Positions 5,108-63,076 of a stretch of DNA of 63,249 nucleotides are shown here, one piece after another. The notes beneath the pieces are model-generated. The model was not told where the DNA came from. It searched no databases and worked only from the letters and a program-made list of their open reading frames with translations. Source of the DNA: Acidobacteriota bacterium (lineage in GTDB: Bacteria; Acidobacteriota; Terriglobia; Acidiferrales; UBA7541); the NCBI GenBank assembly GCA_003223215.1, contig QHYH01000122.1, positions 1 through 63,249 on the forward strand, written 5' to 3'. The stretch's first letter is position 1; every line of letters starts with the position of its first letter. Made by a program: the position numbers and the translations under genes.

Positions 5108-5127
5108 GTCATCTGGAGGGTGCTGCC

Positions 5128-7851
5128 ATGGTGTGGGCTCGGCGATTGTGGCTTCGGCTACAAACTTTGTTCCGTCGTGAACGGGTCGCTCAGCGATTAG
5201 ACGACGAGGTGCAGTTTCATCTGGAGCAGCAAATTGCGGAAAACATTGCCGCCGGCATGAGCCGCGAAGAAGCCCGCTGCGCCGCTATGCGCGGCTTCGG
5301 CAATCCTACATTCCTCAAAGAAGAGACCCGCGACACCTGGGGTTGGACCTGGCTCGAACACTTCGCCCAAGATTTGCGTTATGGCCTTCGGGCGCTGCGA
5401 AAAAATCTCGGATTCACGGCTGTGGCGGTGCTAACGCTCGCCCTGGGAATTGGCGCGAATACGGCCATTTTTCAACTGATCGATGCGCTCCGCCTGCGCT
5501 CCATTCCTGTGAAGGAGCCGCAGCAACTCGTTATCGTGCAACTGGCCGACAGCACCGGCGTCAGGGGAAGCCAAGCCAGTGGTTATCCTGTTCTGACCAA
5601 TCCGGTCTGGGAAAAACTCCGCGACCAGCAGGACGTGTTCTCCGGCGTTCTCGCCTGGGGCAGTAACAGTTTCGGCCTCACTCCCGGCGGCGATGTTCGG
5701 CTTGCTCAAGGCCTTTTCGTCAGCGGTGATTTTTTCCACGTACTCGGTGTGCGGCCGTTGATGGGCCGCGTATTCACCACTTCCGACGACCGCCGCGGCT
5801 GCGGCTTGCCGGGAGCCGTGGTTAGCTATGCTTTCTGGCAACGCGAACTTGGCGGCGATCCGTCAGCCATCGGGCACAAGCTCACGCTTAACTACCATCC
5901 CGTCGAAATCATTGGCATCACGCCTCCCGGTTTCTTCGGGCTCGAAGTAGGCAGCTCCTACGACGTTGCCGTTCCCATTTGCTCGCAAGCGGTTCTATGG
6001 AGCGAAGGCACCTGGCTCGACGAAGGCACGGTCTGGTGGCTGAACGTCATGGGACGGCTGAAACCGGGCTTGACGCGCGAAAAAGCAAACGCGCAGTTGG
6101 CAGTGATTTCACCAGGAATCTTTCAAGCCACGCTTCCATCCAACTATCCCGGCGAAAACGTGAAGGACTATCTCAAATTCAGGCTCGAGGCCGTTCCCGG
6201 GGGCAGTGGAGTTTCCTGGCTGCGAATTCAATACTCAGAGTCGTTGTCACTTCTGCTGGGCACCGCAAGTTTGGTTTTGTTAATCGCTTGTGCAAACCTC
6301 GCCAATCTGATGCTGGCACGCGCCACCACGCGCGAGCACGAATTCACTGTGCGCTTTGCCATCGGCGCCTCGCGCAGCCGGCTCATCCGGCATTCGATGA
6401 CGGAAAGCCTTCTTCTTGCGTTGCTTGGCGGTGCGCTGGGACTTTTCCTCGCTGGAGCACTTAGCAAATTCCTGGTGGCCTCCCTGGGCATGGAGGGTGA
6501 TGCGCCTTTTCTCAACCTTAAGCCAGATTGGCGCCTGCTCGCCTTCACCTTCGGACTTGCCAGCCTTACTTGCATCTTGTTTGGCTTGGTGCCAGCGCTG
6601 CGAGCATCGCGCGTTTCTCCCGCAGAGGCGTTCAAGTCCGCCGGCCGCACAGCGACTGCAAGCCGCAAACGCTTTGGATTTCGCCAAGGGCTGGTCGTCT
6701 CGCAAGTTGCGCTGTCACTGGTGCTCGTGGTCGGCGCGCTGCTTTTTTCCGGCAGCCTGCGCAATCTTCTCGCCGTTGACGCCGGTTTCTCGCAAAAGGG
6801 AGTCGTCATTGCCGGTCTGGATCTCTTCCGTCGTCTAAATGTTCCATATGCAGGGCGGGTCGCATTCAAGCAAGATTTGCTGCAAAAGATCCGCGCTCTT
6901 CCTGGCGTCGTTTCGGCTGCGGAGGTGGAGATGCTTCCCCTTAGCGGGAGCAGCACGGATAATGAGGTCTGGATTCAAGGAACCAATCCTGCCAGCAGAG
7001 TGGTTTCTCTGTTCAATGCGACCAGCGATGGTTACTTCAAGGCGATGGGCATTGCGCTGCTTGCGGGCCGGGACTTTAGTTCGCAGGACACGGTCTCCTC
7101 TCCCAAAGTCGCGATTGTGAACCAAACCTTTGCCAGCAGACTTGGCCTAGGGATGAATCCCATCGGAAGGACATTTCGGCGGCAGGCTACTCCGTCGGAA
7201 CCGGAACAATCCTTCGAGATAGTAGGCTTGGTTGCCAACACAAAGTACTCCAGCTTGCGTGAAGAATTTGCCCCCATCGTGTTTCTCTCCACGTCTCAAG
7301 ACCCACAGCCTGCCCCCTTTGCTCAATTCGTGATCCGCTCGGCAGCGCCCATGGCCGAAACCGTTTCAAATGTCAGAAGCCTTGTCGCTCAGGCCAGCCC
7401 GCTGATCACGCTTGGTTTTCAGCCCTTTGAAACCACGATCCTTGAGGGCCTGACACGCGAGCGCCTGATGGCTAAAGTCTCGGGCTTTTTCGGCCTGCTC
7501 GCTACGCTAATCGCCGCCGTCGGTCTTTATGGTGTGATGTCTTACCTGGTCGCGCAACGCACGAATGAAATAGGCATCCGCGTGGCGCTCGGGGCGCAAA
7601 GAGCAGATGTCCTCTCGCTGGTACTTCGCAACGCCGCCTTGCTCCTCGCCCCGGGGTTAGTCCTCGGTGCGTTTCTGAGTGTGGCCGCTGCCCAGGCGGC
7701 CAGAGCAATGCTATTTGGCTTGAAACCAAGCGACCCTGGAGTTCTCGTCGCTGCCATGACCGGGTTGGGATTCATCGCCCTTTTAGCGAGTTTCCTTCCT
7801 GCGCGACGGGCGTCGCGAGTCGATCCCATGGTGGCCTTGCGATTCGAGTGA
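5128..7851 (+). CDS. ADOP-type ABC transporter permease, full length
   Basis: Complete 907-residue member of the same tandem family. Domain order: ADOP prefix (about residues 1-90, with DDEVQFHLEQQIAENI and MRGFGNPTFLKE), first membrane helix (LALGIGANTAIFQLIDAL), first MacB periplasmic domain (about 120-350), first FtsX core (LLIACANLANLMLARATT, about 370-490), a central helix (VSQVALSLVLVVGALLFSG), second periplasmic domain (about 545-760) and second FtsX core ending with PARRASRVDPMVALRFE. ATG at 5128 follows CTGGAGGG. It lies 20 bp after the second copy, so the three were probably one transcript. Prefix wording is nearly the same in copies 2 and 3, pointing to local duplication. No nucleotide-binding subunit is nearby, as usual for these orphan permeases. 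Confidence 0.93.
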   Translation: MVWARRLWLRLQTLFRRERVAQRLDDEVQFHLEQQIAENIAAGMSREEARCAAMRGFGNPTFLKEETRDTWGWTWLEHFAQDLRYGLRALRKNLGFTAVAVLTLALGIGANTAIFQLIDALRLRSIPVKEPQQLVIVQLADSTGVRGSQASGYPVLTNPVWEKLRDQQDVFSGVLAWGSNSFGLTPGGDVRLAQGLFVSGDFFHVLGVRPLMGRVFTTSDDRRGCGLPGAVVSYAFWQRELGGDPSAIGHKLTLNYHPVEIIGITPPGFFGLEVGSSYDVAVPICSQAVLWSEGTWLDEGTVWWLNVMGRLKPGLTREKANAQLAVISPGIFQATLPSNYPGENVKDYLKFRLEAVPGGSGVSWLRIQYSESLSLLLGTASLVLLIACANLANLMLARATTREHEFTVRFAIGASRSRLIRHSMTESLLLALLGGALGLFLAGALSKFLVASLGMEGDAPFLNLKPDWRLLAFTFGLASLTCILFGLVPALRASRVSPAEAFKSAGRTATASRKRFGFRQGLVVSQVALSLVLVVGALLFSGSLRNLLAVDAGFSQKGVVIAGLDLFRRLNVPYAGRVAFKQDLLQKIRALPGVVSAAEVEMLPLSGSSTDNEVWIQGTNPASRVVSLFNATSDGYFKAMGIALLAGRDFSSQDTVSSPKVAIVNQTFASRLGLGMNPIGRTFRRQATPSEPEQSFEIVGLVANTKYSSLREEFAPIVFLSTSQDPQPAPFAQFVIRSAAPMAETVSNVRSLVAQASPLITLGFQPFETTILEGLTRERLMAKVSGFFGLLATLIAAVGLYGVMSYLVAQRTNEIGIRVALGAQRADVLSLVLRNAALLLAPGLVLGAFLSVAAAQAARAMLFGLKPSDPGVLVAAMTGLGFIALLASFLPARRASRVDPMVALRFE

Positions 7852-31840: not shown

Positions 31841-32034
31841 CTTACCCAGGTGGGCCGTAAAGCCTCGGCGTTTTTAGGCCGAGGACTGTCCGACTGGGCG
31901 GGCAGCCCAAAAGTAAAGCCTCTTCGTGGTCCTCCGCTGAAGTAGGGCGGTTGTGGGCGGAACCCAGCAAAGCCATCTCGGGAAAACAAACCGAGAGGCC
32001 GTAGGAATCCTCGCCGCTTGCGGCGGGGAGGATG
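31841..32034. repeat. dispersed structured repeat, copy A
   Basis: About 194 bp nearly identical to 41815-42054. It contains three small hairpins: CCTCGGC/GCCGAGG with loop GTTTTTA, CTCGG/CCGAG around GAAAACAAA, and CGCCGC-TT-GCGGCG near the end. Copy A lacks about 45 bp present in copy B after the first hairpin. It lies just upstream of the ntrC-like gene on that gene's strand. No transposase or long terminal repeats are seen. Confidence 0.9.
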
Positions 32035-41814: not shown

Positions 41815-42054
41815 CTTACCAGGTGGGCCGTAAAGCCTCGGCGTTTTTAGGCCGAGGATATAAGGCCCCTCTTTCTTTTCCTTCCGAACTGCTCTGTATT
41901 TCTGTCCGAACGACCTATGGGCGGGCAGCCCAAAAGTAAAGCCTCTTCGTGGTCCTCCGCTGAAGTAGGGCGGTTGTGGGAGGAACCCACCGAAGCCATC
42001 TCGGGACAAACCGAGAGGCCGTAGGAATCCTCGCCGCTTGCGGCGGGGAGGATG
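41815..42054. repeat. dispersed structured repeat, copy B
   Basis: About 240 bp, the fullest copy. Compared with copy A it has about 45 extra bp (TATAAGGCCCCTCTTTC onward) after the first hairpin, and otherwise differs at few positions. It ends 12 bp upstream of the alaX start, again on the 5' side of a minus-strand gene. Both copies have the same orientation. Confidence 0.9.
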
Positions 42055-42117
42055 TCAAATCCTAGCGATACAGGCACTCACTCTGGCCTGGGCGGCTGGT
42101 TGAACTGCCGCTGGAGT

Positions 42118-61375: not shown

Positions 61376-61454
61376 CGATGGAAATTTCGCAACTCGGAAG
61401 GACACGGCGGAGAGGGTGGGATGCAAACCCTGCTAGCCTAAGAAATTTCCATCG
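61376..61454. repeat. 13-bp inverted repeat enclosing 53 bp
   Basis: CGATGGAAATTTC (61376-61388) and its exact complement (61442-61454) lie in the 600-bp gap upstream of the cytochrome/monooxygenase gene. The spacer has no recognisable content. It may be a scar of a small element or a cruciform site. Confidence 0.6.
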
Positions 61455-61497
61455 AGGACGGTTCCGTGCAACGCCGGAAGCAAAGGACCCTTTGACA

Positions 61498-61528
61498 GAA
61501 AGAGGGCCTTATATCCTCGGCCTAAAAA
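61498..61528. repeat. dispersed structured repeat, fragment C (reverse orientation)
   Basis: GAAAGAGGG then CCTTATATCCTCGGCCTAAAAA matches the reverse complement of the part of copy B around 41844-41876, with one G fewer. The match stops at the first hairpin. The adjoining sequence is a broken isochorismatase-like gene. Confidence 0.75.
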
Positions 61529-61782
61529 GAGGTCGACCCGATGACTGGAACTTTGAACGCAACGACGGTACGCGCCAATGCCACAGCATTATTGAGCACC
61601 ACTTGCCGCGGGACGGACTCGACACCGAATCCAAGCCCCGCCTGAAAATCAACCAGCAACATCGGGCATCCTTCTGGTTTCGAAAGCGTGTCGGGTTGCA
61701 GCCATTCAGATTGTCCCTGGAATTTCTCACCAGCACAGAGCGCCCCGACAGACTTGCTATCGAGCTTTGGGCGCGATGGCAA
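61522..61782 (-). pseudogene. isochorismatase-like hydrolase, cut by repeat fragment C
   Basis: On the minus strand the frame reads MLLVDFQAGLGFGVESVPRQ, then VVLNNAVALARTVVAFKVPV and IGSTSF before a stop supplied by the repeat. This is the N-terminal part of an isochorismatase-family hydrolase (catalytic Asp in VDFQAGL). The remaining 100 or more residues with the Lys and Cys of the triad are gone. The TTG at 61782 is only a formal start. Confidence 0.65.
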
Positions 61783-62694: not shown

Positions 62695-63076
62695 TCATGA
62701 TTGGTCGTCAGGCAACTTTAAGACGACTCACTTCTCGGCCCATGTCTCACACTATGTGGGCTGAGAGACCCGATAGATGTCGCTAAGTATCTGCCAGTCA
62801 GAAGGATGGTTGGTAGCGGCGGTAGGAATCGCGGCTAATCCGGCGATTTTGGCGAGTGTCGGGTTAGGTCGGTGCCAATCCGTCCGCCATGGGAGTTCCG
62901 AATTCCGACGCTCGAAGGAACATTACGGAACAATAAAAATCCCCGTCTGCGCTTTCCCATGGCTCTCCGTTCCTGTGCGCTCCGCGTAAGTGCCTGAATT
63001 CCCGCGTCAAGGTGCTCTGTCACAGCCGTGTGAGGCACTGTAACAATAAGGAACGGAAGATCACGCCAAAAAAGCT
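62695..63076. other. intergenic region without recognisable gene
   Basis: About 380 bp. It contains a short hairpin (CTCGGCCCA with TGGGCTGAG, near 62731-62766). Two short frames (62777-62989 plus, 62835-63038 minus) lack ribosome-binding sites and family features. Confidence 0.5.

Follow-up and report, generated by a model that had tools for sequence, protein, structure and literature searches.

Why does a minus-strand reading frame for a cysteine hydrolase stop at a fragment of a dispersed repeat, and what does the break say about the repeat? The frame (61782-61522, 86 aa in the ORF list of the window) lies in contig C226 of an 8.8-Mb draft assembly of 279 contigs; by the window we mean the whole 63,249-nt stretch of this contig that was analysed. 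According to a preliminary description, an isochorismatase-like gene is broken exactly where a 31-bp reverse-oriented piece of the repeat starts, the stop codon comes from the repeat, and this is direct evidence that the repeat inserts or mediates rearrangements. Our analysis makes us highly confident that a PATE-type copy with IS608-type ends inserted after TTAC in the hydrolase gene and then decayed by deletions. The features on which the argument turns are collected in Table 1.

Table 1. Coordinates of the hydrolase remnant, the repeat relic and the element copies in the window.
Feature	Position	Strand	Basis
Second window copy of the element, with internal deletion; TTAC before it (31842-31845), end GCGTCAA	31846-32040	+	repeat comparison
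Target TTAC beside the full copy	41816-41819	+	sequence
Full copy of non-coding IS608-like element, 239 nt	41820-42058	+	search, fold
Second break of hydrolase gene: 48-50 nt dispersed sequence, left part resembling tRNA-Ser 3' end (reverse complement, by eye)	61406-61455		genome comparison
Resumed hydrolase gene, AG-GGTCCTTTGCTTCCGGCGTTGCA, frame shifted	61467-61491	-	alignment to L148
TGTCAA, right terminus of the element, first T common with the relic	61492-61497	-	sequence match; TCAA ends 24 of 29 right-ended copies
Relic of the dispersed element (nt 25-57, from left-hairpin loop onward), supplying the TAG stop	61497-61528	-	alignment to full copy
5' part of YcaC/isochorismatase-like hydrolase pseudogene, homologous codons ~31-85	61529-61692	-	tblastn and orthologue matches
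Upstream part of hydrolase ORF, start codon uncertain, unmatched by the three nearest orthologues	61693-61782	-	their matches begin at residue 30-31

The homologous part of the ORF is shorter than first thought. Similarity to YcaC-like cysteine hydrolases, which have the isochorismatase fold, covers codons ~31-85, about 55 residues and not the 80 or so of the preliminary description, and little is matched before residue ~31. With the intact orthologue L148 as tblastn query the identity was 74.5% over 55 aa (E 3e-22, 61692-61528). Of 299 genomes searched within the class, five, including that of the window itself, gave a hit at E<=1e-7; intact frames in three same-class genomes are 73%, 68% and 64% identical to the ORF, and one further match is 38% identical. 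The three nearest intact orthologues all belong to a single family of the class, different from that of the window, and the best of the plasmid matches listed (the best 10 of 46) was a Microvirga plasmid locus with 59% identity. Profile NCBIfam NF041461 matched the ORF at E 8e-5 with 22 bits, against a cut-off of 310, the YcaC structure 1yac matched weakly (E 0.86), and Pfam gave no match for the fragment. The orthologue that is 73% identical (L148) matches PF00857 with 98 bits. A complete Isochorismatase domain is absent from the window gene, the remnant of which consists of ~55 residues and a short frame-shifted tail. No intact orthologue was found within the genus, where 35 congeners gave matches of 32-40% identity only, so the gene may have been acquired by transfer; a scan of genome contigs with the hydrolase fragment gave no relative. 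In the same-class matches and in the best 10 of 46 plasmid matches, homology to the hydrolases ends at codon 84-85, where the repeat piece starts, and in this the place of the break had been identified correctly.

The repeat piece aligns to the element over 33 columns with one gap. On the minus strand, from 61528 to 61497, it reads TTTTTAGGCCGAGGATATAAGG-CCCTCTTTCT and is identical to nt 25-57 of the full window element except for one base. The 31-nt core of the piece scores 28 against the element, whereas the best of 19,787 31-mers sampled from the window outside its known repeat places scored 13 and none reached 28. The TAG that stops the hydrolase ORF (61524-61522) falls in the TTTTTAGG of the repeat, within the left hairpin of the element, and so is indeed supplied by the repeat, while the relic itself begins in the apical loop of that hairpin. 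The block of nt 25-57 comes without either element end and therefore is, taken alone, no insertion scar. That such pieces might be a shared functional motif rather than relics of the repeat was also considered and rejected: an isolated piece at another locus (L096) is preceded by TTACCAT and looks like a deleted copy too.

The dispersed nature of the repeat is borne out by a search of the 8.8-Mb assembly with the window copy, which gave at least 46 matches at E<=10, among them 28 that exceed 100 nt; the count is a lower bound, as 40 of the 65 candidates were scored. From left to right, the full copy has the guide AAAG and the left hairpin, an omega-RNA-like right half, the guide GAAT, the right hairpin and the terminus TCAA. 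When the window copy is folded, AAAG and GAAT stand at the 5' base of the two subterminal hairpins. Ends were counted in 38 loci examined in the own genome. The left end of 33 copies is preceded by TTAC (25 copies), TTGC (four), TTGA (two), TTAA (one) or none of these (one), and, of the 29 copies with a right end, 24 have TCAA there and five do not. Two copies, L033 and L034, are without the stretch between two GTAAAGCCTC repeats. Two 30-nt left-end stumps of the element, L103 (G000:C147) and L104 (G000:C145), end in ..CTCGGCGTT and both break at one nucleotide, in the hairpin loop in which the window piece starts; the common break point possibly reflects a fragile hairpin, or coincidence. The loci L101, L102 and L105 are right ends of related but distinct elements, each with GAATCCTCGCC and a hairpin. 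As their upstream parts differ, the genome seems to harbour at least two such element families.

Mobility of the repeat can be judged from sites that lack it. A copy of 246 nt (L013), with neighbours that we take to be membrane-fusion and RND transporter genes by family name (the reading frame was computed), is absent from G013 and G012. There, flanks of 91-94% identity abut exactly, and the empty sites read TTAC/TTTGCC against the occupied TTAC[246 nt..TCAA]TTTGCC (here and below a slash marks the junction). Compared with these empty sites the insertion shows no target duplication, this being one insertion of the two tried; the flanks of the second copy, L022, gave no clean alignment in the relatives and hence no clean empty site, and that copy was not counted.

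At the hydrolase gene, the piece is followed immediately by TGTCAA and then by AG-GGTCCTTTGCTTCCGGCGTTGCA. This last stretch is ~25 nt long, and its last 23 nt align ungapped to L148 with a score that none of 5000 shuffles reached and that only two of 25,288 sampled 30-mers of the window reached, both overlapping the site itself. Against L149 the score was reached by 17 of 5000 shuffles and 63 of the 25,288 30-mers, and the distant orthologues L150, L146 and L147 lend weak support (82, 657 and 607 of 5000 shuffles, respectively), with all five orthologues aligning at one common offset. In the intact orthologues the protein reads STSA..VY/SGP. The junction is GCG AGC CGG GTT TAC/AGT GGC CCA ATG CTC CCG GCG TTG CA in L148 and likewise GTTTAC/AGTGGCCC in L149, and TTAC is replaced by CTAC in L150, TTAT in L146 and CTAT in L147. 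The window thereby sets TCAA/AG-GG opposite the TTAC/AGTGG of the two nearest orthologues, with the resumed gene one base out (AG-GG versus AGTGG). From the aligned letters, the gene very probably continues beyond the piece with its frame shifted, starting again at the site where the two nearest orthologues carry the TTAC target. It does not terminate at the piece, as had been supposed: the intact same-class orthologues map a resumption of ~25 nt beyond it, directly after TGTCAA. With the left TTAC junction gone, the check here is confined to the right junction, where 6 nt of the terminus are left.

The empty sites of L013 and the facing of TCAA/AG-GG and TTAC/AGTGG at the hydrolase gene together support the view that the repeat inserts, which was one half of the original interpretation. 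The other half, that it mediates rearrangements, finds no support beyond deletions, because the gene continues past the piece and deletions within a dead insertion and next to it suffice to explain the changes seen. Under a true rearrangement, two repeat copies would have recombined, or the DNA would have broken at the left hairpin, and the 5' end of the hydrolase gene would have been joined to unrelated repeat-bearing DNA. The start of the piece in the apical loop in which the L103 and L104 stumps also end would suit such a breakpoint, as would the further break at ~61456 at a different dispersed sequence, but gene sequence resumes on the far side of the piece, adjoining the element terminus TGTCAA, and the missing 3' part, which was sought in the assembly, is not there as a lone 3' half among its eight PF00857 matches. 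We consider this explanation very improbable. Even less credence can be given to filler DNA, that is, to a double-strand break in the gene mended with a short stretch for which the repeat served as template, with no transposition at this place. The presence of just one short internal element block and six terminal nucleotides would agree with a patch, which, however, leaves unexplained why TGTCAA stands where the two nearest orthologues carry TTAC, and the element inserts cleanly elsewhere (L013).

A decayed insertion would account for the site as follows. The copy would have entered on the minus strand, just 3' of the TTAC that the codons GTT TAC (Val-Tyr) contain in the YcaC-like hydrolase gene, presumably transferred as single-stranded DNA by a Y1 HUH transposase (TnpA) acting in trans, and the TAG in its left hairpin would have ended the hydrolase frame. 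Later losses would have removed ~40 nt on the left (~12 nt of the gene, TTAC and element nt 1-24) and ~177 nt from the core of the element, the latter deletion being implied by the position of TGTCAA directly after the relic. The visible 31-bp piece would be the remainder between these two deletions. In addition, the locus would have lost a single base immediately behind the insertion point as well as the 3' part of the hydrolase gene beyond the next ~25 nt. The order of the losses is one that we infer. The left end of an element of this family is required for insertion, and for this reason the left deletion should postdate the insertion.

From ~61456 on, the hydrolase gene is replaced by a second dispersed sequence of 48-50 nt, which may be the attachment-site footprint of an integrating element. 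ARAGORN finds no tRNA at 61406-61455. The same sequence, present also at L055, L106 and L107, consists of the tRNA-Ser-like part followed by GCTAGCCTAAGAAATTTCCATC and recurs with 83-88% identity in G002, G018 and G024. In G028 the same cytochrome-like gene, at a contig end, has a tRNA-Ser-like stretch next to it, and ARAGORN calls no tRNA there either.

Other repeated sequences occur in the window. A 56-nt stretch (62723-62778) is 96% identical to G000:C138:307-362 and is another small dispersed sequence, for 62780-62831, close by, G017, G028 and G032 have short matches, and a 300-nt direct repeat (2441-2740 versus 5112-5411, 77% identical) is unmatched to the IS608-like element. The last 159 nt of the contig (63091-63249) have a 100% identical counterpart close to the end of contig C238; the window's contig therefore ends in a repeat. 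As the assembly is a draft of 279 contigs and this contig end recurs near the end of another, one might suspect that contigs were misjoined via a short repeat and that the broken gene is an assembly artefact. Yet an indel distinguishes the piece from the full copy in the window, the piece is flanked on both sides by homologous gene sequence, and we regard such an artefact as most improbable, on a par with the filler explanation and behind the rearrangement.

The signals of the element place it in a known group. In IS608, as excerpts of PMC5934647 describe it, cleavage occurs at TTAC on the left and TCAA on the right with the guides AAAG and GAAT, and an inserted element lies 3' of TTAC and keeps it on its left. 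The repeat likewise has a left-retained TTAC, a TCAA terminus and AAAG and GAAT at the bases of subterminal hairpins, and the one insertion for which empty sites were compared shows no target duplication, in which it resembles IS608 as excerpted (PMC5934647). Unlike IS608, it is 239 nt long and encodes no transposase. Since its ends, guides and hairpins equal the four signals of IS608, the repeat is best read as a non-autonomous, non-coding, PATE-type member of IS200/IS605 with IS608-type ends. PATEs are palindrome-associated transposable elements of Haloquadratum walsbyi (PMC3119063), with one in Halanaerobium (PMC7290912), and from the portions of these papers at hand the repeat agrees with them in being free of a transposase, in having subterminal palindromes related to IS605-type elements and in lacking target duplication. 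It is too short at 239 nt for a transposase, has palindromes near both ends and carries ends related to the IS605 type, and the core deletions of L033 and L034 resemble the short-repeat-mediated core deletions of PATEs reported in the same portion of PMC3119063. The repeat differs from the PATEs described there in belonging to another lineage and in containing a module of ~120 nt that is like a tnpB 3' end and right end. Among the titles listed in searches of open-access papers none names this repeat, and we claim novelty no further than this.

The relation of the ends to IS605-type elements rests on loci at both sides. The genome has 12 Y1_Tnp matches, and beyond the 3' ends of two decayed tnpA genes lie element-like left ends, L119 (~80%, TTACCAGTCGGGCCGTAAAG) and L120 (77%, E 0.002); a third one by a tnpA, L117, is doubtful (E 0.31). 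G018 and G030 (L070/L071) have a tnpB whose 3' end, together with the right end, matches the right half of the element (nt 121-239) at 73%. In both, the right end finishes with GGATGTCAA, and the TnpB, of 400 aa, has the Pfam domains OrfB_IS605, Cas12f1-like_TNB and HTH_OrfB_IS605. Within the own genome, BLAST beside the 15 PF07282 loci revealed no tnpB with like ends beyond a 15-nt match at L123 (E 0.045) and a 20-nt match at L136 (E 2.3). The right end of a tnpB remnant, L128, shares the layout GAATCC..TCAA, and five of the 15 loci align to the TnpB of L070 with 29-32% identity. Taken together, the repeat is best read as a PATE as understood in the excerpted PMC3119063, made of the left end plus the omega-RNA/right-end module of an IS605-type element that lacks its genes.

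The RNA (omega-RNA) of TnpB derives from the tnpB 3' end and the right end in ISDra2, as excerpted from PMC8612924, and the right half of the repeat resembles these same parts, unlike an omega-RNA locus in that no tnpB is seen in the repeat itself. In cmscan, three of four copies matched Rfam HgcC (RF00062) with 25.8, 23.0 and 22.8 bits (E 0.018-0.11), below the gathering score of 50, and five of seven related loci did so with 21.0-29.4 bits (E 0.0025-0.46), the best being the tnpB locus L070 with 29.4. The best score of the repeat, 25.8 bits, is half of the gathering score, and the weak likeness does not make it an accepted HgcC member. Rfam HEARO, the IscB RNA, was considered as the identity of the repeat; cmscan reported it in none of the loci tried and gave the sub-gathering HgcC instead. 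The fourth copy, L010, gave a snoRNA match only, which we take as chance, and in the window nothing except a tRNA reaches a gathering score. An alignment of the right half holds 11 sequences only, which are too alike for a covariation test. In Thermococcus kodakarensis, three of five confirmed HgcC RNAs are transcribed within transposase genes, according to the available part of PMC4247193. As judged from its likeness to tnpB right ends, the right half may be a candidate orphan omega-RNA module.

We further consider it possible, if rather unlikely, that each dispersed copy is an orphan omega-RNA gene which keeps a TnpB RNA scaffold, with the DNA immediately to the right of TCAA as its guide. 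If true, a single trans-acting TnpB could cut all empty sites of TTAC plus flank, and could in this way hold or copy back dozens of elements without a transposase. The omega-RNA-like right half makes this trans-guide idea testable. The hydrolase case itself is an ordinary decayed insertion, a matter of genome decay, and a tempting misreading is corrected with it: the gene was probably hit by an insertion that later decayed, not cut by a rearrangement. An anonymous repeat becomes a defined mobile element with exact ends, and its copies in the genus become readable as insertions at TTAC. The analysis adds to this genus a well-defined PATE family that carries an omega-RNA-like module.
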